From positions 1 to 43,293 of the forward strand of contig JAFSBX010000053.1 in the NCBI GenBank assembly GCA_017437065.1: 43,293 nt of DNA. The letters run 5' to 3'. The position numbers and the translations under genes were made by a program. The stretch comes from Lachnospiraceae bacterium (GTDB lineage Bacteria; Bacillota; Clostridia; Lachnospirales; Lachnospiraceae). Every line of letters starts with the position of its first letter. The first letter of the stretch is position 1. The notes below the pieces were generated by a model that saw only the letters and a list, made by a program, of their open reading frames with translations, made no database searches and was not told the origin of the DNA. Of this stretch, positions 2,735 to 18,913 are shown piece by piece.

Positions 2735-2840
2735 GGTTATATTTGTTCTCCATCATGCAGTTAACGTGTATGGTGGAGATTTTAATAATAAGAAATTTGA
2801 TTATCAGGGCGACTTATTACTTGCAGAAAGGAAGGAAAGC

Positions 2841-5800
2841 ATGGATATTTTTAATGACATGATGGATTATGACGACATATTTGAAAATCAGGAGACACTT
2901 AATGAAATGAAAGATATAGCAGACGAGATTAAAAAATATGATGTATACGATGTCATAGCAAGGTTATCTGGTTTAAATCTAATGTCGCATAACCAAAATA
3001 AATCCATTTTATTGGATGCTTTGCTTGCTGCTATTATTAGTGAAGAGGAAAGTTCCTATAATTCTACCTGTAAAATGAGTGCAGGTAAATTTAAGAAATT
3101 AATCGGGAGAATTAATGAAACAAATTTGGCTATGTCTATTGACCCGAATGAAAATGTTTTTTATCAGAATGTAATGCTGACGGATAATTATACGGTTTTT
3201 AATGGAATTGATAATACACCTGCATATAATCTCCAGATGCTGATAGATATTTTGTTTAATTACAAGAATGACTTTCCAATAGAATATAATCAAAAAATAG
3301 GAAAACTGGCGATGTTTGCGCTGGGAGTATCGGAAGAAATAGCCCGAAAAATACATATAAAAGATTGTGAAATAGTATCTGATGAAGGGCGACAGGTGAT
3401 AATACCAGATAGTGAAAAGGTAAAAGAATATGCAGAGTGTGTCGTGATTAATGAACAGAGAGCAAAATGTTTTTTGAATGACTATACTAATTTGCTGGAT
3501 GAAATTATTATACCGTTCGGAAGCGGTGATGTTGGTTCCATGAATAATCGACCTTTTTACTGTAAACCGTTTGTAAGAAATAAAAGAGACAATACAATTA
3601 TCTTGCTTAATATTTCGTTGTTACCGAATTTTGTTTTCTTTCAAGCAATAAAAATAGCTTCCGAGTTCGGAATCAAAGATAAGGTAGTTAATCGATATAA
3701 TGACTACGTATGGAGAGATTGTAGAAAGTCCTTAGAATCATTGGGACATCATAAAATAAAGGAAAGTGTGTTAGGTATCGAGCTTGTAAATAATGATTAC
3801 TATAAAGAACGTATGGTAAACGTATATAATAATCAACTAATGCTTGTTGTATTCGTATGTGATGATGCTAGTGATTATACAGAAGTTACAATGCATACCG
3901 AATATCCAGATGAAAGGCATACGCTTTTGTTTGAAAAAAGAATGGAGTATTTCGTTGAAAAAATAAAAGAAAATACTATCGAAAGAGATAATATGTACTG
4001 CATGCTTATAATAAGTGGATTTGGAAGAGGACTGGGATTAAGGGCCGCAAAACGTCCGTCTGCATATAAGGCATTGCAATTGAATCCATTTGAATTGCAT
4101 TGTATATCTGTCAATGAACGACATAAAAAGAATTTTATACCCAGGTATATACGAGCGAGAGAAAAGATAAACACACAAATGCCACATCTATTTAGCGAGT
4201 TAAATGAGATTAGTATCTATACAAGTAATCAGTATTCGTTTTATATGAATGATGATTTGAATACGTATAATACTATGTTTATGATTGCTCCAGGAGATTC
4301 TATAGAATATATAAATCAGGCTATAAAAAATGAAGGGGCTGTACTAATTGATTCTTACGAAGATGGTTGGAAAACGCAGGTGGTTTTGTGTGATTCGAAG
4401 AGAAATATATACACAGAAGAGCGTATGATGGAAACAAAAAGGAGCTCTTTATGTATTCGTTATAATAATTGTACTATTTGGATTACATCTGGTGAAATAT
4501 CGGAGGAAGTAGATGTTAATTTGAATTTTTCGATTATAGATACAATATCTTATTGGTTGGCGGAGTGCAAAGATATCATTGAAAATATGGAATTAATGGA
4601 TACACTATATCACTTTACGGTAGTGCTCAGTGGTGATAAGGAAACCTATTATTATGCTCCAACTGAGGATATTGCGGTATCGGATTTAATTGAGATTGAA
4701 GAAAATGGTAGACATTATAATTTGGTCTGGACTCCTAAAGCATATGGTCAGATGAGTTGCAAGACGAATGCGAAGGAAAAAGAATTGTGCCAGATTATTT
4801 TGGATGTGTTAAATAGTAATGCATACGAGATTTATGATTATGCGGAAAGATTAGATGTATTATTTGAAAATCCGATGAAGAGAAAAATCTTTTCTATGGA
4901 TTTTCAAGAAAAACCATATCTAAAACCTATATTGTTTACTGAGGACAGGATGGTTCGTGAAGAGGATGAGGATTGTCTGTTAGATATAATAGGGAAGTCT
5001 ATACTTCAAAGTGGCAAATGGACATATGGTATTATTCCAGATGAAAAAAGAACAACGATTGCAAATGATGTTGTAGGAATGCTATATAATATGCTTCAAA
5101 AAGAGATTGAAGTTTTAAGTCCGAACAATTTGGTTGAAGTCATATATTCTGATTTGGAAGAAATATTGTATAAGCTGATGGTAGCAGAGCGGACTTATGC
5201 TTATGAGTTGACGTGTTATCCAGAAAAAGAAGAAAAATACATAACCGAATACAATAATCTAAATCGCACCTCGTTAGCTTTAAAATTTATGATGGAATAT
5301 GTTGCTGCCAAACCGCCGAAAGGGAAGGTTGCATTAGGGATAGGAAAGTATGAGTATATATTGGCAATTTGTTCTCTGATTATAGAGTGGGCGTATAAAA
5401 ATGATTTGTTTCACTATAATATTTTTAATACACCAGTGGAAATATTAAAATCAGACAGAATAGGAATGAAGCAGGACGAATTTTATACAATATATCAGTA
5501 TGGTGATAAATATAGAAGAGAACAGTTATATTATTATTCTTCTAGTGATTTTCGGAAGAAATATACTATTAGCCAAGAAGATTATTCAGAATCTTTGGAT
5601 GATGCTTTTCAAGCAGAGTATGGATATACATTTGCTCAATTCTGTAAAGTAATAATAGGAATGGTAGAATATGGTAAAGAGAGAGAAGGACAAGAGATTT
5701 ATATTGAGTCTAAAGAAATACTTGTGGAATACCTGATTCAAATGGATGAGGAATTATCCGAAGAAGCAGTAAGTGGCATATTCGAGGATATATGTTTGAC

Positions 5801-6515
5801 AGAGAGAGATGATTTCTTAAAGTTGCCACCAGAGTTTAGAAAGGAAGATGTATATCCATGGAGATTTAATCGTGCTTACTCCTTTAATAGACGTCCAGTA
5901 ATAATGAGGGAAAGTACGATGATATGGGGGAATAGGCAACTATACCATATGCTCATGTATGTGACAGATTTAATATATGAAGGTAAAATATCAACAAAAA
6001 ACGATAAAATGTCTACTTTGATTGGACGAATTAGCGATGATAGAGGTAGACGATTTAATAAATTGATTGCGGATATACTTTCAGATATGGAGGTGTTTGT
6101 AATTGATTCAAATGTTGATAAGATAAATAAACAGTCTGTGGCAGATGAGAAAGGAAACACATTAGGAGACATTGATGTACTGATAATAGATAGAGAGAAG
6201 AAACGCATATACGTGGCAGAGGTAAAGGATTTTAATTTTTCAAGAAATCCATATGAAATTCAGCAAGAGTATCAGAAAATGTTTGTTGATGGCAAAAAGA
6301 AGTGCTATGCCACAAAACATGCCAGAAGAGTCGATTGGGTTAAGGAACATATAGAGGATGTGAAATTACATTACAAATTAGCTGATGTTACATGGAATGT
6401 TTACGGACTGTTTATAGTAAGTGAGCCATTAATCAGTACACAGGTATATCATCAAAAACTCGAAGTGATTTCAAGGGCCGAGTTAAGTGTGGAGCGTATT
6501 AGAAGGATTAAATGA
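2841..6515 (+). CDS. Large uncharacterised protein with C-terminal PD-(D/E)XK nuclease domain
   Basis: A 1224-residue protein that I do not recognise as a member of a named family. ATG 2841 follows AAAGGAAGG at ideal spacing; an in-frame ATG at 2766 lacks one. The long N-terminal and central part (about residues 1-1050) is rich in Tyr, Asn and acidic residues, has no Walker A and no membrane segments. The C-terminal part has the layout of a PD-(D/E)XK nuclease of the Mrr/NERD type: a helix with RGRRFNKLIADIL, then GDIDVL with D1110/D1112, then VAEVKD with E1127 and K1129, then a helix. It sits at the element's left end, a usual cargo position, directly after a DUF7669-like gene and followed by a strong terminator. 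A role in defence against phage or plasmids is inferred from domain and context only. Confidence 0.7.
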   Translation: MDIFNDMMDYDDIFENQETLNEMKDIADEIKKYDVYDVIARLSGLNLMSHNQNKSILLDALLAAIISEEESSYNSTCKMSAGKFKKLIGRINETNLAMSIDPNENVFYQNVMLTDNYTVFNGIDNTPAYNLQMLIDILFNYKNDFPIEYNQKIGKLAMFALGVSEEIARKIHIKDCEIVSDEGRQVIIPDSEKVKEYAECVVINEQRAKCFLNDYTNLLDEIIIPFGSGDVGSMNNRPFYCKPFVRNKRDNTIILLNISLLPNFVFFQAIKIASEFGIKDKVVNRYNDYVWRDCRKSLESLGHHKIKESVLGIELVNNDYYKERMVNVYNNQLMLVVFVCDDASDYTEVTMHTEYPDERHTLLFEKRMEYFVEKIKENTIERDNMYCMLIISGFGRGLGLRAAKRPSAYKALQLNPFELHCISVNERHKKNFIPRYIRAREKINTQMPHLFSELNEISIYTSNQYSFYMNDDLNTYNTMFMIAPGDSIEYINQAIKNEGAVLIDSYEDGWKTQVVLCDSKRNIYTEERMMETKRSSLCIRYNNCTIWITSGEISEEVDVNLNFSIIDTISYWLAECKDIIENMELMDTLYHFTVVLSGDKETYYYAPTEDIAVSDLIEIEENGRHYNLVWTPKAYGQMSCKTNAKEKELCQIILDVLNSNAYEIYDYAERLDVLFENPMKRKIFSMDFQEKPYLKPILFTEDRMVREEDEDCLLDIIGKSILQSGKWTYGIIPDEKRTTIANDVVGMLYNMLQKEIEVLSPNNLVEVIYSDLEEILYKLMVAERTYAYELTCYPEKEEKYITEYNNLNRTSLALKFMMEYVAAKPPKGKVALGIGKYEYILAICSLIIEWAYKNDLFHYNIFNTPVEILKSDRIGMKQDEFYTIYQYGDKYRREQLYYYSSSDFRKKYTISQEDYSESLDDAFQAEYGYTFAQFCKVIIGMVEYGKEREGQEIYIESKEILVEYLIQMDEELSEEAVSGIFEDICLTERDDFLKLPPEFRKEDVYPWRFNRAYSFNRRPVIMRESTMIWGNRQLYHMLMYVTDLIYEGKISTKNDKMSTLIGRISDDRGRRFNKLIADILSDMEVFVIDSNVDKINKQSVADEKGNTLGDIDVLIIDREKKRIYVAEVKDFNFSRNPYEIQQEYQKMFVDGKKKCYATKHARRVDWVKEHIEDVKLHYKLADVTWNVYGLFIVSEPLISTQVYHQKLEVISRAELSVERIRRIK

Positions 6516-6548
6516 ATCAGTGCAGGCAACGGTTGCAGAGTGAAAAAG

Positions 6549-6575
6549 GAAGGTTGAAATATACCTTCTTTTTTT
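6549..6575 (+). terminator. Rho-independent terminator after the large nuclease gene
   Basis: GAAGGT pairs with ACCTTC (6563-6568) around an 8-base loop, followed by seven T. Almost the same module recurs at 7548-7574. Confidence 0.85.
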
Positions 6576-6630
6576 ATTCTTTCTAGTACAAAAATATTTA
6601 TGAAGAAAAGTATACTTAGAGGTTAAATGG

Positions 6631-6715
6631 TAAGTAGTAGGCGGTACTAACGAAATAGTAAAAATAATTATTGACAAACAGAAAGAAAACAGATAATATT
6701 ACTTTGTAAGTAGTA
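6631..6715 (+). promoter_or_regulatory. Vegetative promoter flanked by TAAGTAGTA direct repeats
   Basis: TTGACA (6671-6676) and TAATAT (6694-6699) are separated by 17 bases, a near-consensus sigma-A promoter for the two small genes that follow. TAAGTAGTA occurs at 6631-6639 and again at 6707-6715, the second inside the palindrome AGTAGTAACTACT. One copy lies upstream and one downstream of the promoter, as expected for operator sites. Confidence 0.65.
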
Positions 6716-6742
6716 ACTACTATAAGAAAAGGGAGGATGTAT

Positions 6743-7198
6743 ATGTTAGTAACCAAAACTGTAAAAATTGAATTTGCTAATTCTGAATGGCGTGCTGTTG
6801 ACTGTATTCAGGATTTAAGGAAAGCAGCTAAAAGTGCATCGTTAAATTTATACTCTAGGTATGATGTTCGAATAGAGTTGCCAAGAGTTGTAAATGATAC
6901 GCAAGTAGTTATGGATATGCGGATTCCAGAAGAAATTGTAGAGACCTTTAGTATTGGAAACCATCTTCGAGGTGTGTCTGCGTACCTAATGAAATACTGT
7001 GATGGCAGATATAATGAAGCGGTTGTCGGTAATCGAATACTAAATTATATAGTTATACCTGTACCTGAATCAGAGGATGTTCAGATTCCAATGGTGCAGA
7101 GATTATCATTGATAGCAGAAGTGGCAGAATTGCTTAAAAACTCAGATAGCGTGACTAATGATAAAATAGCAAGAATAATTACTATTTTACATGAATAA
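6743..7198 (+). CDS. Uncharacterised small protein
   Basis: A 151-residue protein. ATG 6743 sits six bases after GGGAGG; the upstream ATG at 6737 abuts the Shine-Dalgarno sequence and is unlikely. There is no signal peptide, membrane segment or metal-binding motif. The sequence alternates predicted strands and helices and ends in a helical stretch (VQRLSLIAEVAELL...). It has its own promoter and is followed, with an 8-bp frame overlap or a 16-bp gap depending on start choice, by another unknown gene. I cannot assign a function; proximity to the nuclease gene makes an accessory or regulatory role possible. Confidence 0.6.
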   Translation: MLVTKTVKIEFANSEWRAVDCIQDLRKAAKSASLNLYSRYDVRIELPRVVNDTQVVMDMRIPEEIVETFSIGNHLRGVSAYLMKYCDGRYNEAVVGNRILNYIVIPVPESEDVQIPMVQRLSLIAEVAELLKNSDSVTNDKIARIITILHE

Positions 7199-7214
7199 AG
7201 AAGGAGGTTTAAGG

Positions 7215-7541
7215 ATGTATAATAATATGTATTATGTGGAAATGAAAATAACAAAAAGATTGTCGTCAGTTTTCAATATTAATGAAATACAAATTCTCGA
7301 GAATGCAAGAATTAGACATAATAATTATTTTGTTAATGCCACTTGTAGACAAACAAAGAATAGAAAGTATATTTCTAAAATTATAACAAAGGGAGATGTA
7401 ATAGGCTTTTATTTAGAAACAGAACATCCTGTTGCAGACACACAAAGAATTGGTAACGCACTCCGTATGTATTCAATAATTGCTGCAACTAATGGGTTGG
7501 GCGGTTATGTTTCAAATCAGCGATTGATGAAAGCTGCGTAG
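7215..7541 (+). CDS. Uncharacterised small protein
   Basis: A 108-residue basic protein. ATG 7215 is chosen because AAGGAGG lies just upstream; an in-frame ATG at 7191 overlaps the end of the previous gene. Residues such as TCRQTKNRKYISKIITKGD suggest a nucleic-acid-binding surface, but no named domain is visible. It is the second gene of a two-gene unit that ends in the terminator at 7548-7574. Confidence 0.55.
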   Translation: MYNNMYYVEMKITKRLSSVFNINEIQILENARIRHNNYFVNATCRQTKNRKYISKIITKGDVIGFYLETEHPVADTQRIGNALRMYSIIAATNGLGGYVSNQRLMKAA

Positions 7542-7547
7542 TAGAAA

Positions 7548-7574
7548 GAAGGTTGAAATACACCTTCTTTTTTT
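7548..7574 (+). terminator. Rho-independent terminator (second copy of the module)
   Basis: GAAGGT (7548-7553) and ACCTTC (7562-7567) form a 6-bp stem with seven T after it. Stem and most of the loop equal the terminator at 6549-6575. Confidence 0.85.
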
Positions 7575-7599
7575 ATGTCTATTTTACGGAAAGGAGGTG

Positions 7600-7711
7600 G
7601 TCTCGAAAAGTGTACATTTTAAGACTATGTAAAACAGGCTGGTAAACAGTCTCAAAAAGCATACAAAATAAATTTTAAGACGTCTCAGAGGAAGTATAGA
7701 CATTATGAGAC
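7600..7711 (+). promoter_or_regulatory. res: Putative res site for the serine resolvase (three subsites)
   Basis: Three consecutive units begin with GTCTC and end with AGAC or GAGAC: 7600-7625 (26 bp), 7649-7681 (33 bp) and 7682-7711 (30 bp). The first two share GTCTC-A-rich ... TTTTAAGAC. They lie directly upstream of the resolvase start at 7732. Inverted-repeat subsites of about 25-34 bp upstream of the resolvase gene are the standard layout of Tn3-type res sites. Confidence 0.6.
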
Positions 7712-7731
7712 GCAGGAAGGAGATTTTATTT

Positions 7732-8373
7732 ATGAAACGTTACGGTTATCACAGAACAAGTACCAGAGAGCAACATTTGGACAGAGGTATTACAGAAATC
7801 AAGGCATATTGTACTGCCAATAGCTTAGAACTGGAGAAGATTTTTACCGACCAGCAGACAGGTAAGAACTTTAATAGGCCTCGTTACACTATTATGAAAG
7901 AGGACGTGCTTAGAGCAGGTGATGAATTAATTATCACTGAGGTTGACCGTTTGGGTAGAAATAAGCAAGAGACTCTTAAAGAGCTTCAATATTATCGAGA
8001 TAATGGTATCAGAGTTAAAATATTGGAACTACCGACAACTCTTATGGATTTATCAGCTATGGATAATGCTATGGCACGTATGATAATGGAAACCATTAAT
8101 AATATGCTTATTGAATTATATGCGACCATGGCTCAGGCGGAGATTGAGAAGAAAGAGAAACGCCAGAAGGAAGGTATTCAGGCAAAGAAAGACCGTGGTG
8201 AGTGGGACAATTATGGCCGTCCTGCGGTTATGAGTATGGAAGATTTTGCAGATGAGTACAAGAAGGTAGAAGCAGGCGAAATTCGTCCGTTTGAATTAAT
8301 GCATAAGCTGAGGATGAGTAAAGCTACATATTACCGATATGTCAATAAAATAAGTAGAGTTGTTGATATATAA
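7732..8373 (+). CDS. Serine recombinase, resolvase type
   Basis: A 213-residue serine site-specific recombinase. ATG 7732 follows AGGAAGGAG; the upstream in-frame ATG at 7705 lies in the res-like region. The N terminus YHRTSTREQ carries catalytic S10 with R8 and Q14. The motif EVDRLGRN gives the conserved arginines, and the long E helix (TMAQAEIEKKEKRQKEGI) leads to a short C-terminal helix-turn-helix. The size is that of small resolvases/invertases, with no large-serine-recombinase domain. With the res-like sites upstream it probably resolves multimers formed during replication of the excised element. A DNA inversion role near the flagellin is conceivable but lacks inverted sites. Confidence 0.88.
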   Translation: MKRYGYHRTSTREQHLDRGITEIKAYCTANSLELEKIFTDQQTGKNFNRPRYTIMKEDVLRAGDELIITEVDRLGRNKQETLKELQYYRDNGIRVKILELPTTLMDLSAMDNAMARMIMETINNMLIELYATMAQAEIEKKEKRQKEGIQAKKDRGEWDNYGRPAVMSMEDFADEYKKVEAGEIRPFELMHKLRMSKATYYRYVNKISRVVDI

Positions 8374-8520
8374 GTAATAATTTTTATATATTTTTAAATT
8401 ACAGTATAGGGTAAAAAATTTAGAAATCTGCGGAAGTACCCTACCCCTTTTATATAGGGAAAGAAGTCTAGTTCGGAACCCCACCCTCCGTATAAATAAA
8501 AATAATGTCGAACATTAAAA

Positions 8521-8555
8521 TAGCCAGAGCCATAGATTACCTATGACTTTGGCTA
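8521..8555. terminator. Bidirectional terminator between resolvase and XRE gene
   Basis: TAGCCA...CATAG pairs with CTATG...TGGCTA around five bases, with T runs on both strands. It overlaps the stop codon of the minus-strand XRE gene and ends both convergent transcripts. The preceding 8374-8520 gap shows no gene. Confidence 0.75.
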
Positions 8556-8981
8556 TTGCTTTTTGCGGGCTTTTATCTTAGTAAATTCGATGATTTCTTT
8601 CTTATCAGCTTCTGATATTTTCTCAAAGTAGTAGAGTAGTTCTTTTTCAAGATTATTGAAATGTTGGTATTTTTTCTGATTGTTGGGGTTGTTGAAGTAC
8701 TCTAAAAAACCAGCCAAGTCTTCACTGGATTGTGTAGGTGCAGGTGCATCATAGTAAACATTCTTGTCGAGTTCCAAAGAAAGTTGAATCAGGTCATCGA
8801 CAGAAATATTGTATAGACCAGCTAATTTATAAAGGGTTTCGGAGTTGGGTGTACGTTGACCTGTCTCATAATGAGAATATGTCTGTCTCACAACGCCCAG
8901 AAAGGATGCTACATAGTCCTGATTGTATCCATGAATGGTTCGTAGCTCTCGTAATCGGTTTGCTAACTGTTCATTTTTCAA
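8553..8981 (-). CDS. XRE-family helix-turn-helix regulator, divergent from flagellin
   Basis: A 142-residue regulator. I choose the TTG at 8981 since AGGAAAGGTGG lies about eight bases upstream and the HTH begins at once; the longer frame to 9140 would add 53 hydrophobic residues not expected in this family. The HTH reads LRELRTIHGYNQDYVASFLGV.RQTYSHYETGQRTP, followed by LYKLAGLYNISVDDLI. The rest is an acidic helical tail that could be a dimerisation or effector part. It is transcribed away from the flagellin gene, and three TGTAGC repeats lie in the shared upstream region, so it probably represses itself and the flagellin. Confidence 0.85.
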   Translation of the reverse strand: MKNEQLANRLRELRTIHGYNQDYVASFLGVVRQTYSHYETGQRTPNSETLYKLAGLYNISVDDLIQLSLELDKNVYYDAPAPTQSSEDLAGFLEYFNNPNNQKKYQHFNNLEKELLYYFEKISEADKKEIIEFTKIKARKKQ

Positions 8982-9042
8982 GGTTTCCACCACCTTTCCT
9001 AATAAAAGTATAGTGAAAAGTGCAAAAGAAAATGCAACAAAG

Positions 9043-9114
9043 TGTAGCGAAATAACAAAAATAATGTTAACTTTATGTAGCGAATGGACGATATAAAAGA
9101 TACAGAGTGTAGCA
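9043..9114. promoter_or_regulatory. Three helically phased TGTAGC operator-like repeats
   Basis: TGTAGCGAA occurs at 9043-9051 and 9076-9084, and TGTAGCA at 9108-9114. Start-to-start distances are 33 and 32 bp, close to three helical turns each. The middle copy lies inside the spacer of the sigma-D promoter and the third over or just past its expected start point, a good layout for repression by the divergent XRE protein. Confidence 0.55.
9068..9094 (+). promoter_or_regulatory. Sigma-D (sigma-28) flagellar promoter for the mobile flagellin
   Basis: TAAC (9068-9071) and GACGATAT (9087-9094) are separated by exactly 15 bases. The Bacillus sigma-D consensus is TAAA-N14-16-GCCGATAT, so 10 of 12 positions match. 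The predicted start lies near 9101, giving a leader of about 54 bases to the flagellin ATG. No strong vegetative promoter is seen here on this strand. Confidence 0.6.
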
Positions 9115-9154
9115 TTCTGTCTGGAACAGTATAGTAACAACTTGAGGTAGACGC

Positions 9155-11350
9155 ATGATTATAGCACATAATTTAGGGGCAATGAATGCTCAGAGACAAT
9201 ATAATATCGTAACCAATAGAAAGGCAAAAACATCAGAAAAACTGTCATCGGGTTATAAAATTAATAGAGCCGCAGATGATGCCGCTGGTCTATCTATTTC
9301 AGAAAAAATGCGTAGACAGATAAGAGGCCTGACACAGGGTGTAGAGAATACGCAGGATGGTGTATCACTTTGTCAAGTTGCCGATGGAGCTTTGGCAGAA
9401 GTTAATGATATGCTTCATCGTATTACAGAACTTTCGGTAAAGTCCGCTAATGGTACAAACAGTGAACAGGACAGACAGTATATACAGGAAGAAATCAATC
9501 AAATTTTGCAGGAAATAGAGAGGATTGGAGATACAACCACTTTTAATGAACAGAAAATTTTTTCGGGTAGCACCAATACTGTTAGTGGTGGAAGTAGCGG
9601 TGTAGGTGGAACAGGTGGTGTGACGAATCCGCCAACGACAACAATTACCAAAGAACGTACACTTAAGGTAGGTGTGTCAGGAACACCAACAGATACAAGT
9701 GCTCAGACTTATACTATTTCCGCTGATGTGGCCTCAGGGGTTTCTATCGGTACAGATACATATGATTGGAGTGCAATTCAATCTGCTGACGGAAAGAGCT
9801 TAGCGGATACGGAAATAGCGGCAGGCAGTTATTCTTTGACACATAAAGGAATGACGTTAAATATTCAGGTATCAGAGGGACAGACTCTTGATTCGATTGC
9901 TTCTAAAGTGGATGCATTGAGTTGGTCAACATCACAAAGAATTGTATCTCGTGAGAAAGCTGTAGATAATCTGACAGTAAATACAGGAACTAAAATTGCA
10001 ACGTTTTCAAGTAAGAGCTATCCGTCAGTATATACGGTTAATGCAACTGAAGAAGGTATAAGTGTAAATAGCAGAACGGTCAGAAAATGGAGTGAAATGG
10101 GTATTGACCTTGATAATCTGCAAGCTGGAACCTATACATTTAATGACCCATATGCAAATTCGGATTTGTCATTTACTTTTGAGATTAAGGATGGAGCAAC
10201 ACGAAGCGGTCTGATAGCAGGACTTAATAATGTGAAAATATCATGTAGTACGTTATATGAGTATTCAGACTGCCAGTCGATGTCATTTGGAACTAATCCT
10301 GATTGTCGATTAGACCTATTCATGGAACCTGCACACACGGCAGCGGTATTTTCAGGTTCTGTGGGAGAGGACCTTGGACTTTGGCAGAATGATGGTCAGC
10401 AAAAGTATTTTGAATTTGCTGTAAAAAATGGTAAGTTAGGTCTTTCTTATTTGGGTGCGGGTTCAGACCCATTTAGTTTATCTACAACCAAAGACTATTT
10501 TTTTGCAATAACAGATGAAAGCGAGAATCGCCTAAAGGCATTAGACTACAGTCAGGCAACAAATGATGATGATTGGAAAGATAATCCGATTGTATTCAAA
10601 AATGGAGATACAGAACTGTACTTATACTTACTAAACCATGGGAATAGCACAATTACGTCTTATCAGGATTTGATAGATGACTGTACAGTTCCCTATAGTA
10701 GTGGAGCTAATACCAATAATGTTTTACTTGGTTTTACTCATAATAATTTGACAATAAATCAGTATGCTGGAACTGGTAAAGTACAATCATTGGCAAATGG
10801 AAATGTAGGTAAAGTAACATATGAAACATCATTAACAGCCGCCACGTTACTTGACAATAAAGAAGATTATACCGTTACGGTTCCTACTACACCGACAACA
10901 CCCGACCAGCCATCTGTTGACCCCGATGCACCCGCATTAGATGAGACCATAGGTGCAAAAAGGTTATGGATTCAGTCTGGGTGTGAAGCTGGCGATGGAA
11001 TGTGGCTTGAAATTGATAACATGAACACATCCATTTTAGGTATTAAGGACGTAGATGTTTCTACAATTGATGGTGCAAATCAGGCTATGGATGCTGTAAA
11101 AGGAGCATTGCAAAAGGTAACTGCAAACCGCAGTAAAATAGGAGCTCAGCAAAATCGATTGGAACACACCATAGCCAATGAGGAAAATATTGTTGAGAAT
11201 ACTACCGCAGCTGAGTCAAGAATCAGAGATACGGATATGGCAAAGACAATGGTTGAATATTCAAATACCAACATTTTGTTACAGGCAGGGCAAGCAATGA
11301 TGGCACAGGCAAATCAGAGCAATCAGGGGGTATTAAGTTTGTTGCAATAA
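9155..11350 (+). CDS. Flagellin carried on the mobile element
   Basis: A 731-residue flagellin, the structural subunit of the flagellar filament, secreted through the flagellar export apparatus. Both polymerisation ends are intact: residues 1-137 contain LSSGYKINRAADDAAGLSIS and LHRITELSVKSANGTNS, and about 640-731 contain ANRSKIGAQQNRLEHTI and end in ..MAQANQSNQGVLSLLQ. Between them is an unusually long exposed region of about 500 residues, beginning with a Gly/Thr-rich linker and ending in a Thr/Pro linker; its middle looks like repeated beta-rich domains. Bacterial flagellins are often 270-550 residues, so this is a large surface-variant type. It has its own sigma-D promoter and an XRE gene divergent to it. 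No flagellar assembly genes accompany it, so it must use host machinery. The weak start context (TTGAGGTAGACGC before ATG) still contains GAGG. Confidence 0.93.
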   Translation: MIIAHNLGAMNAQRQYNIVTNRKAKTSEKLSSGYKINRAADDAAGLSISEKMRRQIRGLTQGVENTQDGVSLCQVADGALAEVNDMLHRITELSVKSANGTNSEQDRQYIQEEINQILQEIERIGDTTTFNEQKIFSGSTNTVSGGSSGVGGTGGVTNPPTTTITKERTLKVGVSGTPTDTSAQTYTISADVASGVSIGTDTYDWSAIQSADGKSLADTEIAAGSYSLTHKGMTLNIQVSEGQTLDSIASKVDALSWSTSQRIVSREKAVDNLTVNTGTKIATFSSKSYPSVYTVNATEEGISVNSRTVRKWSEMGIDLDNLQAGTYTFNDPYANSDLSFTFEIKDGATRSGLIAGLNNVKISCSTLYEYSDCQSMSFGTNPDCRLDLFMEPAHTAAVFSGSVGEDLGLWQNDGQQKYFEFAVKNGKLGLSYLGAGSDPFSLSTTKDYFFAITDESENRLKALDYSQATNDDDWKDNPIVFKNGDTELYLYLLNHGNSTITSYQDLIDDCTVPYSSGANTNNVLLGFTHNNLTINQYAGTGKVQSLANGNVGKVTYETSLTAATLLDNKEDYTVTVPTTPTTPDQPSVDPDAPALDETIGAKRLWIQSGCEAGDGMWLEIDNMNTSILGIKDVDVSTIDGANQAMDAVKGALQKVTANRSKIGAQQNRLEHTIANEENIVENTTAAESRIRDTDMAKTMVEYSNTNILLQAGQAMMAQANQSNQGVLSLLQ

Positions 11351-11391
11351 ATACAAACACTTAAATGCATAACAAAGGAAGGAGCAGTTTT

Positions 11392-11787
11392 ATGGATTAT
11401 TTTAATCGGCGAGCTTTAAATGAATATGGAGGAAAAACGAAGGAAGTAAGAGAGTATGAGTGGACTCATGAGCATGGTAGTTTTGAACAGGATGTACCAG
11501 AAAAGATTGTGCGTTCTGGTGCTAAATTTTATACAAGTTCATATAAGTGTCCTAAATGCAAAAAATTTATGTATAAAGCAAATGTAGGTGAATTTGTTTG
11601 GATAAAGACCCCAGATGGAATGAAACCATTAAAAAGTACATTTGGTTGCTTTGAATGCTGTATGTTATTTTCGGCAATCCCAGGAAAGATGTTGTCGGAG
11701 GGGGATTATTATACCCTAAAGGACAAAAGAGATGTCATGTTTATGACAACTATTATAAGTGATTATGCATTATATCCACCACAGTAA
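11392..11787 (+). CDS. Uncharacterised cysteine-containing protein downstream of flagellin
   Basis: A 131-residue soluble protein. ATG 11392 follows AAAGGAAGGAG; an in-frame ATG at 11365 overlaps that site. It contains CPKC (C53, C56) and CFECC (C86, C89, C90), together compatible with a four-cysteine zinc ribbon. No known domain name can be given. It starts 41 bp after the flagellin stop and is followed after 13 bp by another unknown gene, so the three may be one transcript. A link to flagellin expression or modification is only positional. Confidence 0.6.
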   Translation: MDYFNRRALNEYGGKTKEVREYEWTHEHGSFEQDVPEKIVRSGAKFYTSSYKCPKCKKFMYKANVGEFVWIKTPDGMKPLKSTFGCFECCMLFSAIPGKMLSEGDYYTLKDKRDVMFMTTIISDYALYPPQ

Positions 11788-11800
11788 GGAGGAATGTATT

Positions 11801-12277
11801 ATGATTGTTGAAGCAATATTATTACCAGATTCGGATGACTTTGGATATTTCTCTATATTTGCTCAATTAGTAGAAAAGTCAGGTAAATATAGAAGAGATA
11901 ACAGTAAACAAAAATCAGTAGTGGTTTCAGTTAATGAAATGTGGATATGCCAGCATTTTATTAGTAATTACTCAGGAGAAGACCTTGAGTGCATACATTA
12001 TGGGGATATGAGTACGGGAACCTATAAAATGGCAATGGGAAATATACCCGACACAACAGTGTACAGAGTGGCATTACCAGAATTATGGATTCTGTTTTCT
12101 TCCTTTATTAGAAAAGCCTCTGTATCCAATAGGGATATTGACCGTATGGCTAAGACGTTATCGAGTAGAAGTAGAAATGAACTTATGTATCAAAATGGAG
12201 ATGTTGTAAAAAGAGATGGTAGTTTTGCTCCGCTCCAGGATGTCGTAATGGCATTAAGCCTAGCAATTCAGAGGTAG
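11801..12277 (+). CDS. Uncharacterised protein, third gene after flagellin
   Basis: A 158-residue protein whose ATG at 11801 follows AAGGAGG. It lacks a signal peptide and transmembrane segments. Features are an N-terminal VEAILLPDSDDFGYFSIF, a central YRVALPELWILFSSFIRKAS and a C-terminal helical region. I do not recognise a family. It ends 53 bp before the terminator hairpin at 12330-12372. Confidence 0.55.
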   Translation: MIVEAILLPDSDDFGYFSIFAQLVEKSGKYRRDNSKQKSVVVSVNEMWICQHFISNYSGEDLECIHYGDMSTGTYKMAMGNIPDTTVYRVALPELWILFSSFIRKASVSNRDIDRMAKTLSSRSRNELMYQNGDVVKRDGSFAPLQDVVMALSLAIQR

Positions 12278-12329
12278 TAGTATACTCTTATATCTAATAA
12301 TGTTTCTTAAACTTAATAAATGTGAACAG

Positions 12330-12372
12330 GCAACGTTAGACATCGTAATCGGTGATTCTGGCGTTGCTTTTT
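12330..12372 (+). terminator. Terminator closing the flagellin gene group
   Basis: GCAACG (12330-12335) pairs with CGTTGC (12362-12367), followed by five T. A second hairpin, GAGCA (12382-12386) with TGCTC (12398-12402) and then T-rich sequence, follows at once, so the boundary between the cargo and the small-gene run is strongly insulated. Confidence 0.7.
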
Positions 12373-12441
12373 ATTTGACCTGAGCAAGTCATTAAACTGC
12401 TCTATTTTTATGCCTTGGGGCAGGAAAGGAGGTGCAGAAGC

Positions 12442-12696
12442 ATGGAAGATTTATTATCCAAAATCTATGACAAGGTGGCTTATTACGAAAAGGATGGCAT
12501 CCAGTTTGGCAATGAATATGATTGTCGGGTGGAAGAGATTCTTAAGCCGCTAAGAGAGACCATGGCTGAATCCGAAGTGGAAGAGATTAAGGAGCTGGTG
12601 TATGCCGCTTCTTATTATGCCCAGAAATATGGATTTATGCTGGGTGTACGCTTTATGGCAAAGCTTATGTTAGAAGCTATGGAGTCAGCAGAGTAG
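12442..12696 (+). CDS. DUF6809-like small protein
   Basis: An 84-residue, strongly acidic, all-helical protein. ATG 12442 follows GGAAAGGAGG at good spacing; the longer frame from 12415 is not needed. The pattern EDLLSKIYDKVAYYE...EYDCRVEEIL...EVEEIKELVYAASYYAQKYGFMLGVRFMAKLMLE fits the small DUF6809-type helical proteins common on Lachnospiraceae plasmids and ICEs. Function is unknown. It is the first gene of a same-strand run leading to the recombination genes. Confidence 0.55.
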   Translation: MEDLLSKIYDKVAYYEKDGIQFGNEYDCRVEEILKPLRETMAESEVEEIKELVYAASYYAQKYGFMLGVRFMAKLMLEAMESAE

Positions 12697-12767
12697 CAGA
12701 GCTGCCGCAATTACAACTGAATATGGAACCAAAAACAAAATTATGAAAAGAACAGGAGATTAAAACT

Positions 12768-13775
12768 ATGATGAACAACAATTTTAACAACGGAGCAGCT
12801 AACAACAAAAACAATTCAAATAATGGAGGTTTTATTATGGCACAGGGAACACTTACAACAATGGAAGAATTTGCAGGAACAGTAAAGACAGCTATGGAAG
12901 CACATTATGGTGTTGATTACAAAGTAACGGTACAGGATGTACAGAAAAATAATGGCCTGGTGCTTACTGGTATTACGATTTTGAAGAAGGATTGCAACAT
13001 TGCCCCTACGATTTATCTGAATCAGGCATTTGAACAGTATCAGGAAGGACATACCTTGGAGAGTATATGTAGAGAATTTATTCGTGTATATGAAGAGCAT
13101 AAGGTTCAAACTGATTTTGATATAAGTTGTGTAATAGATTTTTCAAAGGTGCAGAGTCGTATCTGCTATAAGCTCATAAATGTCGAGAAAAATGAAGTAT
13201 TGCTTTCTGATGCACCGCATGTTTTGCTGGAAGACCTTGCCGTTATCTTTTATATTCTAGTATCCAGTGATGCGGAAGGTACTGGCACGATTACCATTAA
13301 GAATAACATGCTGGAGATTTGGGATGTAAATACAGATACCTTGTATGAACTGGCACTTACAAATACCCAGAGGTTATTCCGAGGAACGGTGCAATCCATG
13401 GCAAGTGTAATGACTGAAATCTTATCTCATAAACTGGATGAGGAAAGTGCTCAAGAGTTTTACGACATGATGGTAGGTGAGAATGATATGATACCGATGT
13501 ATGTGTGTACCAATACCATGAAATTAAACGGTGCGGGTGTAATTCTTTACAGAGGATTGCTTCAGGCGTTTGCCGATAGAGTTGATAGTGATGTGTTTAT
13601 TTTGCCAAGCAGTATCCATGAAACTCTTCTTATTCCTGTAAATGCAGATATGGATGTGGAATATCTTAGAGATATGGTTAGAACTGTCAACAGGACCGAA
13701 GTGGCACCAGATGAAATCCTATCTGATAATGTATATCGTTACAGTCGTTTAACAGACCATGTGGAATTAGCGTAA
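12768..13775 (+). CDS. DUF5688-family protein
   Basis: A 335-residue soluble protein of the DUF5688 type, common on clostridial conjugative and mobilizable elements and without an established role. The family core begins at TMEEFAGTVKTAMEAHYG and ends near ..NRTEVAPDEILSDNVYRYSR. There are two plausible starts: ATG 12768 with AGGAG and a 23-residue Asn/Gly-rich leader, or ATG 12837 with a perfect TGGAGG and a start (MAQGTLTTMEEF) close to the domain. Both may be used. It follows the DUF6809-like gene by 71 bp and precedes a run of small genes in the same direction. Confidence 0.7.
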   Translation: MMNNNFNNGAANNKNNSNNGGFIMAQGTLTTMEEFAGTVKTAMEAHYGVDYKVTVQDVQKNNGLVLTGITILKKDCNIAPTIYLNQAFEQYQEGHTLESICREFIRVYEEHKVQTDFDISCVIDFSKVQSRICYKLINVEKNEVLLSDAPHVLLEDLAVIFYILVSSDAEGTGTITIKNNMLEIWDVNTDTLYELALTNTQRLFRGTVQSMASVMTEILSHKLDEESAQEFYDMMVGENDMIPMYVCTNTMKLNGAGVILYRGLLQAFADRVDSDVFILPSSIHETLLIPVNADMDVEYLRDMVRTVNRTEVAPDEILSDNVYRYSRLTDHVELA

Positions 13776-13830
13776 TCCATATAGGTCTTATTTTTTTACC
13801 CTAAATTACAGAAAGCAGGAGGAAATATTT

Positions 13831-14142
13831 ATGTTTAACAAGAAAGAAATGAAGCTCATCACAGATTACAGAAAGGCACAGAAGTACCTGATGAATGGTA
13901 TTCCAGTATTTATGGTACAGCTGGATGGCAGCTTAGTTGAAATTACAGAGGATACTGATTGGAAAACTCTGCTTTTTCATAACATGAAACAAGGTAACTA
14001 TGCAATTTATCGTAAGAAGTTTGCTGGTATCGGGGAGTTCCATAAGGACATCCATATCGGTAAGAGAACACTTACGGTAGAACATACAAAAGAAGGAGGT
14101 GGTGCATCATGGACGTTTGCATCTTGCAGGGACAAAGAATAA
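13831..14142 (+). CDS. Uncharacterised small basic protein
   Basis: A 103-residue protein with a strong AGGAGGAAATATTT-ATG start. The sequence MFNKKEMKLITDYRKAQKYLMNGIPVF.. and a basic C-terminal half give no recognisable domain. Its last 34 bases overlap the start of the cysteine-rich gene at 14109 in another frame, implying translational coupling. It belongs to the small-gene run between DUF5688 and the ArdC-like protein. Confidence 0.6.
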   Translation: MFNKKEMKLITDYRKAQKYLMNGIPVFMVQLDGSLVEITEDTDWKTLLFHNMKQGNYAIYRKKFAGIGEFHKDIHIGKRTLTVEHTKEGGGASWTFASCRDKE

Positions 14143-14288
14143 CCCCTGAAATGCCTGGAGCTTGCAGTAGATGTAGCTTGTATCTTAGTACCTGCCTGCC
14201 AATGATTCTGAATGGATTCTTGGTGGGAGCAGAGTGCGATTATGATTATTGCTGTGATTGTCCGCATTATGAAGAGTGTGGGAAGTAG
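14109..14288 (+). CDS. Cysteine-rich 59-residue protein
   Basis: A short gene missed by length cut-offs: ATG 14109 follows AGAAGGAGG by seven bases and the stop is TAG 14286-14288. The product has ten cysteines in 59 residues, clustered as CSRCSLYLSTC near the middle and YCCDCPHYEEC at the end, which suggests a metal-binding (zinc or iron-sulfur) mini-domain. It overlaps the preceding gene and is followed after 15 bp by the DUF3848-like gene. Similar cysteine-rich small proteins are found in the equivalent place on related elements; function unknown. Confidence 0.65.
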   Translation: MDVCILQGQRITPEMPGACSRCSLYLSTCLPMILNGFLVGAECDYDYCCDCPHYEECGK

Positions 14289-14303
14289 GAAAGGAGAAGC
14301 ATT

Positions 14304-14630
14304 ATGTTAAATAATGAATTTGTAACCAGATTAGTAGCAGAGCTGGAGGTAGTAAAGTTGGATATTACAGCCAGACCGCTTACGGCATCCCAACTGTGGG
14401 ATAAGTCTTATGAATATGTAATTAAGCAGGCGATTGTGGATATGTTTACAGGTGAGAATAACCAGCTGTATAGATATACCAATGCCATCATTACAGATAT
14501 TATGCAGGAAGAGAATGCGTTGCATTATTTGTATGGTATCTGGAAAGATGCTGATTATATGTTGCAGGGAGCATTTGCTGATACATTTTATGAGGAATTG
14601 TTATACAGAAGAGGTGGTAGTGATGAATAA
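14304..14630 (+). CDS. DUF3848-like small protein
   Basis: A 108-residue acidic helical protein starting at ATG 14304 after AGGAAAGGAG. The segment WDKSYEYVIKQAIVDMF and the later LYGIWKDADYML resemble DUF3848 proteins, which commonly precede ArdC-like antirestriction genes on ICEs and plasmids. Here the stop overlaps the ArdC-like start by eight bases (14623-14630), so the two are translationally coupled. The family assignment is moderate; the function is not known. Confidence 0.5.
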   Translation: MLNNEFVTRLVAELEVVKLDITARPLTASQLWDKSYEYVIKQAIVDMFTGENNQLYRYTNAIITDIMQEENALHYLYGIWKDADYMLQGAFADTFYEELLYRRGGSDE

Positions 14631-15513
14631 GAATCAGGAGAAAATAAAAGCAGCCCTTGAACGTATCGACACTTGTTTGGCGACAATAGATACGGACGAG
14701 GACTGGCTTAGGTACTTGTCTTTTCAAAGTTTATTTTACAACTATAGCTTTGGAAATACAATACTTATTTATTCACAGAATCCAGAAGCAAGCTATGTGA
14801 AGGGCTACAAGGCTTGGAATCAGCTTGGTAGATATGTGAAGAAAGGGGCAAAGGGGCTGGCTATACTGGCCCCTTGTTTCAAGAAAACAGAGGTCTTTAA
14901 AGAACCAGAAAACAAGTCAGAATATCACGATGCGGAAGGTGAGAAAGAGGTAAAAAAGGTTATCTCAGGATTTTGCGTTACTTATGTTTATGATATTGCG
15001 GATACTGATGGAAGTGACGAATACTTACCTGTACTGGTAAAAGGGCTTGCTGGAAACAGTGAAGCAGAGAAAGAAATTTATGAGAGATTGCGAGCATTCA
15101 TATCTAAAGAACATACCGTAACAGAGGTAACGGGAACAGCCTCTAAGGGCTCGTATAACCTCGATACAGGCGTTATTTGTGTAAGGGGTGACTTAGATTA
15201 TCTGCAACGAATTAAGACGCTCCTGCATGAATATGCACATGCTCTTGATTTTAAGATGCATCCAGAACCTGATGTATCCCGCAACAGAAGGGAACTTATT
15301 GCAGAGTCAGTGGCGTTCGTGGTAGCTATGAGACTTGGGCTTGATACCAGTAGTTATAGTATGAGTTATATCAAAAGCTGGTTGAAAGATGCAGATGAAT
15401 TAAAAATAATTGCTGATACGGTACAGAAAGTGTCGGCACGAATCATTAACAATTTGGCAGAATCTTCGGATTCTGCCTTTTCTAATTTGAAAGAAGAACA
15501 GGAGGAAGAATAA
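14623..15513 (+). CDS. ArdC-like ssDNA-binding/zinc-metallopeptidase protein
   Basis: A 296-residue protein. ATG 14623 is chosen because GAGGTGG precedes it and it overlaps the previous stop; the open frame extends upstream without support. Residues 30-90 (YLSFQSLFYNYSFGNTILIYSQNP...GYKAWNQLGRYVKKGAKGLAILAP) match the N-terminal ArdC-type ssDNA-binding domain. H202-E203-Y-A-H206 is a zincin HEXXH motif, with a downstream helix containing RRELIAESVAFVV as a third-ligand region. Such proteins occur on plasmids and ICEs and are linked to protecting incoming ssDNA from restriction; that role here is inference from the family. Confidence 0.82.
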   Translation: MNKNQEKIKAALERIDTCLATIDTDEDWLRYLSFQSLFYNYSFGNTILIYSQNPEASYVKGYKAWNQLGRYVKKGAKGLAILAPCFKKTEVFKEPENKSEYHDAEGEKEVKKVISGFCVTYVYDIADTDGSDEYLPVLVKGLAGNSEAEKEIYERLRAFISKEHTVTEVTGTASKGSYNLDTGVICVRGDLDYLQRIKTLLHEYAHALDFKMHPEPDVSRNRRELIAESVAFVVAMRLGLDTSSYSMSYIKSWLKDADELKIIADTVQKVSARIINNLAESSDSAFSNLKEEQEEE

Positions 15514-16448
15514 TGTTTGCAAATGTATTAGTAGAAACAGATAAATTATCAAAAGAGGAATGGTTAAAATGGCGTAAACGTGGTATCGGGGGAAGTGATG
15601 TTGCTTCCCTCTTGGGTATCTCTAAATGGAAGTCTGAAATAGAGCTTTGGCTTGATAAGACGAACCAGACCAATGAACCACCAGTAGAAAACGAAGCTAT
15701 GACCTGGGGAACCATTATGGAACCCATTATCCGTAACCATTTTGCAGAAGTGACTGGCAAAACAGTTGTTGAACTAAAGGCTATGCTTCAGCATCCAAAG
15801 TATCCGTTTATGCTTGCTGATGTAGATGGCGTTACTGTTGATGATGAGGGTAATCCTGCCATTCTTGAAATCAAGACAGCTAGTGAATACAAGCGTAATG
15901 AATGGGAAGAGGATGTGCCAGCGTATTATCAGACACAAATTCAGCATTATTTATGCGTAACTGGCATTCGGAAAGCATATTGTGCGGTGCTGATTGGTGG
16001 CAATTCATTTAAGATTTACGAAATTGAAGCGGATGATGAAATTCAGTCTATGTTAATAGCGGTGGAGAAGAATTTCTGGAATAAGGTACAGAACATGATT
16101 CGTCCTGAAATGGATGGTTCAGATGCTGCTAAAAATTTGTTGGATTCATTATATCGCGGTGGTGTTGCAGAGCAGATTGTTATGCCAGAAGAAGCTATTG
16201 AATATGTGGATGCTTATATTGAAGCCTGTGCAGAGGAGGACAGTGCCAAAGCAAAGAAACAGGAAGCTAGTAACTGTATTAAAGAAATCATGGGTGACTA
16301 TGATAAAGCTATCTGCTTAGGTCATAGTATCAGCTGGAAACCAGTAAGTACGGAGAGACTTGATACAAAGGCTTTAAAAGAACAGGAGCCTGAGATTTAT
16401 GCCAAGTATGCAAAGACTACAGTAGCACGTAGATTCACATTGAAATAG
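15513..16448 (+). CDS. YqaJ/lambda-exonuclease-like recombination nuclease
   Basis: A 311-residue PD-(D/E)XK exonuclease of the YqaJ family, which degrades one strand of double-stranded ends to produce substrate for an annealing protein. The motifs are RGIGGSDVASLLGISKW near residue 25, TWGTIMEPIIRNHFAEVTGK, LADVDG (metal-binding Asp), AILEIKTAS (E-X-K) and YYQTQIQHYL (Q..Y). Length is normal for the family. Its ATG overlaps the last base of the ArdC-like stop. It is followed after 14 bp by the putative annealing protein, the classic two-gene arrangement of phage recombination systems such as lambda exo/bet and YqaJ/YqaK. Confidence 0.9.
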   Translation: MFANVLVETDKLSKEEWLKWRKRGIGGSDVASLLGISKWKSEIELWLDKTNQTNEPPVENEAMTWGTIMEPIIRNHFAEVTGKTVVELKAMLQHPKYPFMLADVDGVTVDDEGNPAILEIKTASEYKRNEWEEDVPAYYQTQIQHYLCVTGIRKAYCAVLIGGNSFKIYEIEADDEIQSMLIAVEKNFWNKVQNMIRPEMDGSDAAKNLLDSLYRGGVAEQIVMPEEAIEYVDAYIEACAEEDSAKAKKQEASNCIKEIMGDYDKAICLGHSISWKPVSTERLDTKALKEQEPEIYAKYAKTTVARRFTLK

Positions 16449-16462
16449 GGAGGATAACGATT

Positions 16463-17320
16463 ATGGGAAAACAGATAGATTTAAAAGCATTATTAGAGAG
16501 TAAAATGGGTAACATTGAGCCAATGGAAGGCTCTAAAATAGCCATAGAGCGTGCTGAAATGAGTGTACCCCACAATCTTATGTTTGATGCAGAAAGTACC
16601 GAATTTAAGCCAGAAACAAAGCCTGTGACAGCATCAGGAGCAAGAGGTTTAACGGTTGAGGAAGCGAAGTCATTTGATGATGAAATGAATCGTTTTATTG
16701 ATACTGTACTCATTGCTGGTGTTGATTATGGCATCATCCCGAGCTGCAAAAAACCGACACTTTTAAAAAGTGGAGCTGAGAAGATTCTTAATTATTTGGG
16801 TCTGATTGCTAGAACTGAAATCAGCAATCGTGTAGAAGATTACAATATCGGATTCTTTAGTTACGAAGCCAAGGTGTATTTGATTGATTACAATGGCGTT
16901 GTAAAAGGTGAGGGTATTGGCATAACGAATACCAGAGAAGGTAAATATGCTAAGACCAATGGCTATGCAGTACAGAATACCGTTCTCAAAATGGCTAAGA
17001 AGCGTGCTTTGGTGGATGCGGCTTTAAATGTGGGTAATTTGTCAGCAAGGTTCACTCAGGATGTTGAGGATATGAATATAGAGCCTGATAATGTGGGCGG
17101 TAAAAGTCCTGAAGAACTAAAGCAGGGAGAGAAGCCTAAAGCAGACAGACCAGTTACCCAGAAGCAGCTTAAGTATCTGGAAACACTCATGGGCCAGCAT
17201 AATACATCAGCAGAAGCTATGAACAAATATTGTAAGACGAACTTCGGTGTAGATGACTATAAGAAGATTACAGGAGTTCAGGCATCTACTTTGATAGAGA
17301 AGTTTAAAGCAGTGGAATAA
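16463..17320 (+). CDS. Putative single-strand annealing / recombination protein
   Basis: A 285-residue protein in the position normally held by RecT, Erf or Rad52-like annealing proteins, directly after the YqaJ nuclease. It is not an obvious RecT. Distinctive segments are DYGIIPSCKKPTLLKSGAEKIL near residue 90, and AVQNTVLKMAKKRALVDAAL followed by ARFTQDVED, which recur in phage proteins of unknown function next to exonucleases. The C terminus has a small helical module (TQKQLKYLETLMGQ...) seen appended to several phage DNA-binding proteins. Annealing activity is inferred from gene order. It closes the gene run and is followed by a terminator. Confidence 0.6.
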   Translation: MGKQIDLKALLESKMGNIEPMEGSKIAIERAEMSVPHNLMFDAESTEFKPETKPVTASGARGLTVEEAKSFDDEMNRFIDTVLIAGVDYGIIPSCKKPTLLKSGAEKILNYLGLIARTEISNRVEDYNIGFFSYEAKVYLIDYNGVVKGEGIGITNTREGKYAKTNGYAVQNTVLKMAKKRALVDAALNVGNLSARFTQDVEDMNIEPDNVGGKSPEELKQGEKPKADRPVTQKQLKYLETLMGQHNTSAEAMNKYCKTNFGVDDYKKITGVQASTLIEKFKAVE

Positions 17321-17358
17321 TTTGGCGGCGTAAAATTGCGTCGTCAAAATGAATTGAC

Positions 17359-17387
17359 GGGGGATGCAGTTATCTGTGTCCCCTTTT
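17359..17387 (+). terminator. Rho-independent terminator after the recombination genes
   Basis: GGGGGA...CAG pairs with CTG...TCCCC around TTAT, followed by four T. Confidence 0.75.
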
Positions 17388-17481
17388 CTGAAAATGTCTA
17401 TATGGTCCTTAGGGATTTGTAATATGCTCTTTTGGGGTGTCCTGTAGGTTGAATAAACAAATAAACATTGTATACAGAGGA

Positions 17482-17597
17482 AAATGTTAATTTATGTTGC
17501 ATTTTAACATTTCCCTTCTGGAGCCAGGTATATTATATATTAGGACACGCAGTAAAAATCAAATTTGTCGTGGGGTAATGAAAATGACTTCATTTTC
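17482..17597. promoter_or_regulatory. Inverted repeats upstream of the XRE gene
   Basis: The 306-bp gap 17321-17626 holds no gene. After the terminator it has AAATGTTAA (17482-17490) facing TTAACATTT (17504-17512) over 13 bases. It also has the compact palindrome GAAAATGA-CT-TCATTTTC (17580-17597), 30 bp before the XRE start. Either could be the autoregulatory operator; an AT-rich TATATTATATATTA tract lies between them. Confidence 0.45.
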
Positions 17598-17626
17598 TAC
17601 ACCATTGTCTACGGAAGGAGGCTATT

Positions 17627-18112: not shown

Positions 18113-18121
18113 ATAGAAAGA

Positions 18122-18146
18122 GGACAGTCGAAATAGACTGTCCTTT
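18122..18146. terminator. Bidirectional terminator between convergent XRE genes
   Basis: GGACAGT (18122-18128) pairs with ACTGTCC (18137-18143) over eight bases, with TTT after it and A-rich sequence before it, so it can serve both strands. Confidence 0.7.
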
Positions 18147-18147
18147 G

Positions 18148-18789: not shown

Positions 18790-18813
18790 ATACCCTCCAA
18801 GCGTTCATGGAAC

Positions 18814-18913
18814 TGAACAATAATGATAAAAATTTTATTTGTTCAACATCTGTTTAGTTTGCTGACACCTTGATTATATCTTGATATATTCAAGGTGTAA
18901 AGAAGAATTCTTC
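18814..18913. promoter_or_regulatory. Operator region of the cI/cro-like switch
   Basis: Three inverted repeats lie in the 152-bp divergent gap: TGAACAA (18814-18820) facing TTGTTCA (18839-18845); ACACCTTGA (18865-18873) facing TCAAGGTGT (18890-18898); and the 12-bp palindrome GAAGAATTCTTC (18902-18913). They are plausible binding sites for the two HTH proteins on either side. Confidence 0.6.

Follow-up and report, generated by a model that had tools for sequence, protein, structure and literature searches.

The window, i.e., the whole stretch of 43,293 nt that was analysed (positions 1-43293 of contig C34 in the host genome G000, 3.9 Mb in 156 contigs), carries on its forward strand a flagellin gene (9155..11350) encoding 731 aa, with conserved ends and a variable centre of about 500 aa. 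The open reading frame starts with ATG and has no internal stop. Both the N- and the C-terminal helical domains characteristic of a flagellin (FliC/Hag) were matched in Pfam, Flagellin_N (PF00669, 7e-39, aa 3-139) and Flagellin_C (PF00700, 6.4e-23, aa 645-730), leaving about 505 residues between them, and the ends are therefore considered intact, as the initial annotation had it. Among the 40 window ORFs scanned with Pfam there was no other flagellar structural family, and FliS, FliW or csrA were not recognised alongside the flagellin. The centre was modelled by AlphaFold with low confidence (mean pLDDT 43.5). Directly 3' of the flagellin and on the same strand lies a gene for a 140-aa protein with CxxC-like pairs (11365..11787), which has a 29% relative at the same place in the corresponding module of Butyrivibrio AE2015. 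A stretch resembling the 140-aa protein also occurs within long frames of 14 other genomes (894-1049 aa in 13 of these, 453 aa in one) and at a second place in G000.

The flagellin gene is located within element B, an integrative element of about 20.7 kb (2326..22987). Imperfect 59-nt direct repeats, 78% identical, are found at 2267-2325 and 22929-22987, and the 12-nt core TTTGCCACGGCA at their ends (forward strand, 2314..2325 and 22976..22987) occurs twice in the window and in none of 100 shuffles. The left core marks the junction between element A and element B. The right core lies within codons of a gene for an LMW-phosphatase (22957-23406); the right repeat copy corresponds to the 5' end of this gene and is in its reading frame. 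A Tn916-type tyrosine integrase (21513..22736, forward strand; PF00589 2e-30, PF02920 3.2e-25) adjoins the right repeat, so that the end-placed integrase and flanking core repeats of a Tn916-integrase element are both present. The chromosomal genes common to the window and two genus mates start at the phosphatase gene. In one genus mate (G001) integrase-like frames adjoin the phosphatase and are followed by the same chromosomal genes, and in the other (G002) the contig ends exactly at the phosphatase spot. Because of the core repeats at both junctions, the integrase and the position at the phosphatase gene, the flagellin belongs, as judged from the organisation of the DNA, to a site-specific element some 20.7 kb long, and the earlier description of a flagellin carried inside an element devoid of other flagellar genes holds. 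No relaxase or type IV secretion genes were recognised among the element B ORFs scanned, several of which had no family match, and element B is for this reason not classed as an ICE; Mob_Pre and NikA-like genes are found near the module in its relative in V9D3004. Contamination is not supported, as the contig runs into genes arranged in the order of G002; the protein identity is 97-99% for three of them and 82-96% for most of the rest.

Element B is the second of two elements in tandem. Element A (363-2325), at the same phosphatase attachment site, is represented in the window by its xis-int end (Xis and integrase, 363-2067) and extends past the left end of the contig. At another locus (L159) a phosphatase is likewise found beside a related integrase. 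The left part of element B encodes a 1249-aa protein (2766-6515) with a PADLOC match to Upx (4.5e-26, best stretch aa 933-1207), which is likely to be a defence gene. Repeats resembling terminators with a hairpin and a T-run were seen by eye after element B genes at 6546-6577, 7545-7576, and 18120-18151.

A normal flagellar locus is not supported either, as that of the host is located elsewhere. In G000 it comprises a 282-aa flagellin, FliS, FliD, FlaG, CsrA, FliW, and FlgK and is separate from the element, and a further flagellin of 375 aa is encoded on contig C84. The initial annotation would have fallen had the same gene been found at a fixed flagellar locus in relatives that lack the element; the best match in the two genus mates (G002:C26) has no flagellar neighbours. 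A prophage origin was also rejected. The viral contig collection contained no flagellin match and only two YqaJ relatives (43 and 39%), with no recognised flagellin beside them. In both phage-collection records looked at (two of 11) a flagellin is followed by a FliS-like gene, an arrangement unlike that of the element B module.

The flagellin is part of a module with a characteristic gene order: resolvase, divergent HTH regulator, flagellin, DUF5688 protein, ArdC-like protein, YqaJ, and YqaJ partner. In the window a small serine recombinase of the resolvase/invertase family (7705..8373, forward; PF00239 3.5e-22) is followed by the HTH regulator on the reverse strand (8553..9140; PF01381 5.6e-13), whose real start is probably near 8981 given the length of its relatives. 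Downstream of the flagellin and all on the forward strand are the backbone genes for the DUF5688 protein (12768..13775; PF18941 3.1e-102) and the ArdC N-terminal domain protein (14434..15513, start probably 14623; PF08401 5.1e-10), a YqaJ/RecE-like recombination exonuclease (15513..16448; PF09588 1.1e-41, phrog_434 2.3e-99), and the YqaJ partner (16463..17320; phrog_10048, function unknown, 3.8e-46). The partner is by its position a candidate annealing protein; no annealing-protein family was matched in Pfam or NCBIfam, and its AlphaFold model (mean pLDDT 46.0) was too poor for use.

The same gene order was found in three other Lachnospiraceae, V9D3004 (L085), Butyrivibrio AE2015 (L086), and AC3007 (L087), among four loci at which a scan of genome contigs found YqaJ; the remaining contig, of 3.6 kb, was too short to inform. 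The flagellins at this slot in the other elements have 717, 721, and 657 aa, respectively. In all three elements the HTH gene lies beside the flagellin and the recombinase (73-76% identical to that in the window) precedes both, and the DUF5688 (56-58%) and ArdC-like (67-77%) proteins are shared. FlhA is present in all four carriers, as is FliA above the curated cut-off (FliA_WhiG 5.2e-78 in G000). When 397 genomes of the family were searched with YqaJ, 20 had a match at E <= 1e-50, and 20 of the 24 regions given by rows outside G000 and G118 (AC3007) were examined, several of them on short contigs. One further close relative (L142 in G058, 75%) has a type I restriction system of the HsdR, HsdM, and HsdS families in the slot and no recognised flagellin, so the flagellin is carried by four of five informative close members, the window included. 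As none of the 19 regions examined for more distant element relatives (of 23 such rows) contained a flagellin, flagellin cargo belongs to one branch. Defence-type genes are found near the module in the window (Upx-like), in V9D3004 (cytosine methylase), and in AC3007 (restriction-modification genes), and none was found in the two AE2015 module neighbours scanned. A TniQ-family gene about 9 kb from the V9D3004 flagellin (L139, 8803-10191) hints at a larger Tn7-like neighbourhood.

Upstream of the flagellin there is a sigma28-like promoter, TAAC-N15-GACGATAT (9068..9094, forward), which was the best site in the 300 nt upstream and was equalled in 4 of 300 simulated sequences. The pattern TAA[CG]-N15-GACGATAT is present upstream of the flagellin in all four elements as a conserved block in an otherwise diverged spacer; taken singly the element promoters score modestly, 3 to 10 of 300 simulated sequences being as good. 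Among 16 upstream regions scored, sigma28-like sites as good or better were seen in several others, the host's own flagellin included, and no site of that quality was seen in L068, pNP95, G003, and C84. The sigma28 consensus given for Butyrivibrio is TAAA-N16-17-MCGATAa, and in the same study the majority of flagellin genes examined in Roseburia and Eubacterium were assigned to sigma28 control by inference (PMC3720852). Apart from the fourth base of TAAA and the weak a that closes the consensus, the element sites match it. With this promoter upstream and a sigma28 gene in the host, the flagellin would, at the level of sequence, be a sigma28-controlled flagellar gene.

The promoter overlaps an operator-like pair, TGTAGC-N27-TGTAGC (9043..9081, forward), the second copy of which lies inside the promoter spacer and which has one match in the window (0.02 expected). 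The window, V9D3004, and AC3007 each have two TGTAKC copies, 33 bp apart start to start, one of which lies in the promoter spacer; the AE2015 copy differs by at least one base and has no TGTAKC in the spacer. A pair with the same spacing was also found in two unrelated loci (L036 and L069) of 128 scanned. In G000 the combined promoter/operator motif has its sole exact match at the element, and allowing one mismatch gave two more (reversed control, one). We infer from this arrangement that the HTH protein would repress or gate the flagellin promoter. In G043 the same promoter with TGTAGC in its spacer lies between a homologue of the HTH gene (71%) and a csrA-flagellin pair (L095, 7727-10319), and this locus is a possible source of the regulatory unit of the element. 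No FliA over the cut-off was found in G043 (draft, 95% complete).

A 17-nt inverted repeat (8897-8913 and 9108-9124, 88%) flanks the promoter in the window, its left arm being inside the HTH gene, and in V9D3004 there is one of 18 nt (3674-3691 and 3734-3751, 78%, 42 nt apart). Such repeats bear on a possible Hin-type phase variation, in which the promoter segment would lie between inverted recombination sites. A serine recombinase is present, the two pairs are different, and none is common to the three modules compared by eye. The leader has a small hairpin at 9102-9120 (ACAGAGTGTAGCATTCTGT), and hairpins at the leader of V9D3004 (GAGACG-TTGC-GTCTC) and AC3007 (GAGATG-TTGC-ATCTC) differ by one compensatory change (by eye). 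The hairpin could possibly be a CsrA site or half of an operator.

The modules of V9D3004 and AC3007 share a block of 10.6 kb (2364-12943 and 2984-12940, respectively; blastn), with an identity of 96.0% across 6569 nt and 93.8% across 1785 nt; no match was found by blastn between the two loci beyond this block. With one gene as a proxy for the hosts, the alignable 1060 nt of flhA are 71.2% identical, and the FlhA proteins 68%. Within the shared block six other module proteins compared are 96-99% identical, and the middle of the flagellin gives no DNA alignment at all (27% aa identity in a forced global alignment; the window and V9D3004 give 26% in the same way). Local protein matches in the V9D3004 and AC3007 middles are restricted to its start (30% over 97 aa) and its end (69% over 26 aa). 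In bins of 30 nt the two genes are 90-100% identical over the first 210 nt and 86-100% over the last 210 nt, with a drop between. On the evidence of these alignments, the module has recently been transferred between distant hosts and the flagellin centre has been replaced between nearly identical modules. The AE2015 and V9D3004 flagellins have the same centre (84%).

A tree was made from the flagellin ends only (37 rows, two of the 39 collected flagellins being left out), with part of the flagellins of each carrier collected. In it the four element flagellins group with four lone ones (96/96), whereas the host flagellins that were collected fall elsewhere. As element and lone genes are mixed within this group the element flagellins do not form a clade of their own. 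The nearest row outside it is a 946-aa flagellin of AC3007 itself. Three of the lone flagellins (L068, L069, and L070; 669-722 aa) were chosen by their central domain and the fourth, G002:C26, as best match. The former are single genes between housekeeping-like genes, with no flagellar or element genes recognised nearby in a comparison with the marker set, and FlhA was not found in G274, the genome of L070. The latter is truncated by an in-frame stop and lies beside mobilisation-like genes and an IS fragment (the mobilisation, IS, and housekeeping names near L036 and L068-L070 were given by eye from first residues).

The initial annotation also proposed that the gene could swap the filament surface of the host. 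Mobile cargo status, recurrence at the same slot, differing and replaced centres, and a flagellar-type promoter make swapping or mixing of the surface the natural reading of the sequences. It is fairly probable that element B is a site-specific integrative element bringing its host a regulated alternative flagellin that would enter the filament and change its surface. Unless the HTH protein occupies its promoter and blocks it, the element flagellin would be transcribed with the host's sigma28 at the time when flagella are made. The subunit, having ends like those of the host flagellins, would be exported and would enter or replace the filament, so that element-carrying cells would display a different surface; filaments may be mixed or fully replaced, and use of the subunit may depend on phase. 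Homologous recombination via the conserved ends could then swap the outer domain, and a pool of surfaces would travel with the element.

A retained segment was likewise pointed out, which we take to be the TLR5-contact region (aa 87-103, LHRITELSVKSANGTNS). This segment is present and largely conserved; it argues little for a change in immune recognition, as the corresponding segment of the host's own flagellin, LQRMNELAVKAANGTYT, is similar and it is thus not special to the element B flagellin. The outer domain is the part that varies. The likeliest benefit may be escape from agents that bind the filament, flagellum-binding phages first and antibodies second. Phages are favoured on circumstantial grounds: the slot and its neighbourhood also hold restriction and other defence genes, and in Campylobacter protection from a phage by a minor flagellin has been reported (PMC5126078). 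A wider version, in which regulator, sigma28 promoter, flagellin, and recombination exonuclease constitute a mobile flagellin cassette that moves between genera and element backbones and reshuffles outer domains, possibly through its own YqaJ-type recombination, and in which it shares its slot with restriction systems as anti-phage cargo altering the receptor surface, is put forward tentatively.

Other roles for the flagellin and its regulator have to be weighed. The HTH protein may serve the element itself, in immunity or control of excision, and the flagellin be a plain class III gene. The best curated match of the regulator is to the RstR phage-repressor family (7.9e-13, under the family cut-off), and 13 of 14 regions around HTH relatives have no recognised flagellin (15 of 44 rows outside G000 and G118 were examined in these regions, two on contigs below 10 kb). 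In all four elements, however, the regulator is divergent from the flagellin, as its counterpart in G043 is from csrA-flagellin, and the sigma28-like spacers of G043 and of three elements contain TGTAKC, which makes a role confined to the element doubtful. It may also be considered that the product is no filament swap but serves adhesion or contact between cells, e.g., donor and recipient, as a minor or secreted flagellin with the large centre as the working part. The centres of 405-479 residues show little resemblance beyond the first ~100, and a small protein gene lies 3' of the flagellin in three of the four elements, related in two. Against this, the ends are of full length, their closing QGVLSLLQ or QGVLNLLQ is shared by many filament flagellins of the collected set, and the promoter is sigma28-like; we regard such a function as rather improbable.

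A captured flagellin that is rarely or never expressed and retained by chance would resemble the single genes L068-L070, of the same group and among housekeeping-like genes (by eye), and the truncated lone flagellin of G002. Yet all four element copies are intact and have kept slot, promoter, and divergent regulator despite divergence of the backbone proteins of the window and the other elements to 58-77%, and a passive passenger is accordingly rather improbable. The preferred reading remains that of a regulated alternative filament subunit.

Flagellins on mobile DNA are already known in enterobacteria, on plasmids and islands. The linear plasmid pBSSB1 of Salmonella Typhi, with fljB(z66) and fljA, is similarly a mobile replicon with a complete flagellin and an adjoining putative regulator, and motility through functional z66 flagella has been described for strains carrying it (PMC1876496, PMC6860452). 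In contrast to what is described for pBSSB1, element B is integrative, belongs to another phylum and has a divergent HTH gene instead of a downstream fljA. It also differs in its serine recombinase, in a module common to distant hosts and in outer-domain replacement within near-identical modules. The flk locus of E. coli is reportedly excisable. The flkA, fllA, flmA, and flnA genes of E. coli are likewise imported extra flagellins at other loci and are functional in assembly (PMC7018530). The phylum and the type of element differ, and for element B one can see the vehicle and also its relatives in distant hosts. Serotype switching of chromosomal fliC is also described as an exchange of the hypervariable centre through recombination within the conserved ends (PMC7018530); in the present case the gene affected is carried by an element, and the limits of the exchanged part are still visible.

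Among the matches listed from the open-licence literature, none indicated by title or start of abstract a flagellin as cargo of a Lachnospiraceae element. As far as the literature was searched, what is new is a Lachnospiraceae integrative-element module with its own promoter and operator-like repeats and with centre replacement in near-identical modules. It has been argued that a newly arrived flagellin is of no benefit before it comes under a working regulatory system and is unable to replace a distant resident gene, and that in Escherichia and Salmonella one can no longer see where the crossovers that brought in new variable regions took place (PMC7018530). The element family would offer a concrete route round these limits, since its flagellin brings along a regulator and a promoter of flagellar type, and the near-identical modules with different centres reveal the boundaries of exchange. 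In the Lachnospiraceae, a family with dominant members in human colon and rumen (PMC10794557), the element appears to be a vehicle for moving and reshuffling the flagellar filament surface between species, and the spread of flagellin diversity in the family becomes directly testable. Within the same family, the plasmid pNP95 of Pseudobutyrivibrio xylanivorans also carries a large lone flagellin, of 680 aa and among glycosyltransferase and surface-sugar genes, with no resolvase annotated in the 27 features around it. The ends of the pNP95 flagellin group with those of the G043 and G003 flagellins and not with those of the element flagellins.
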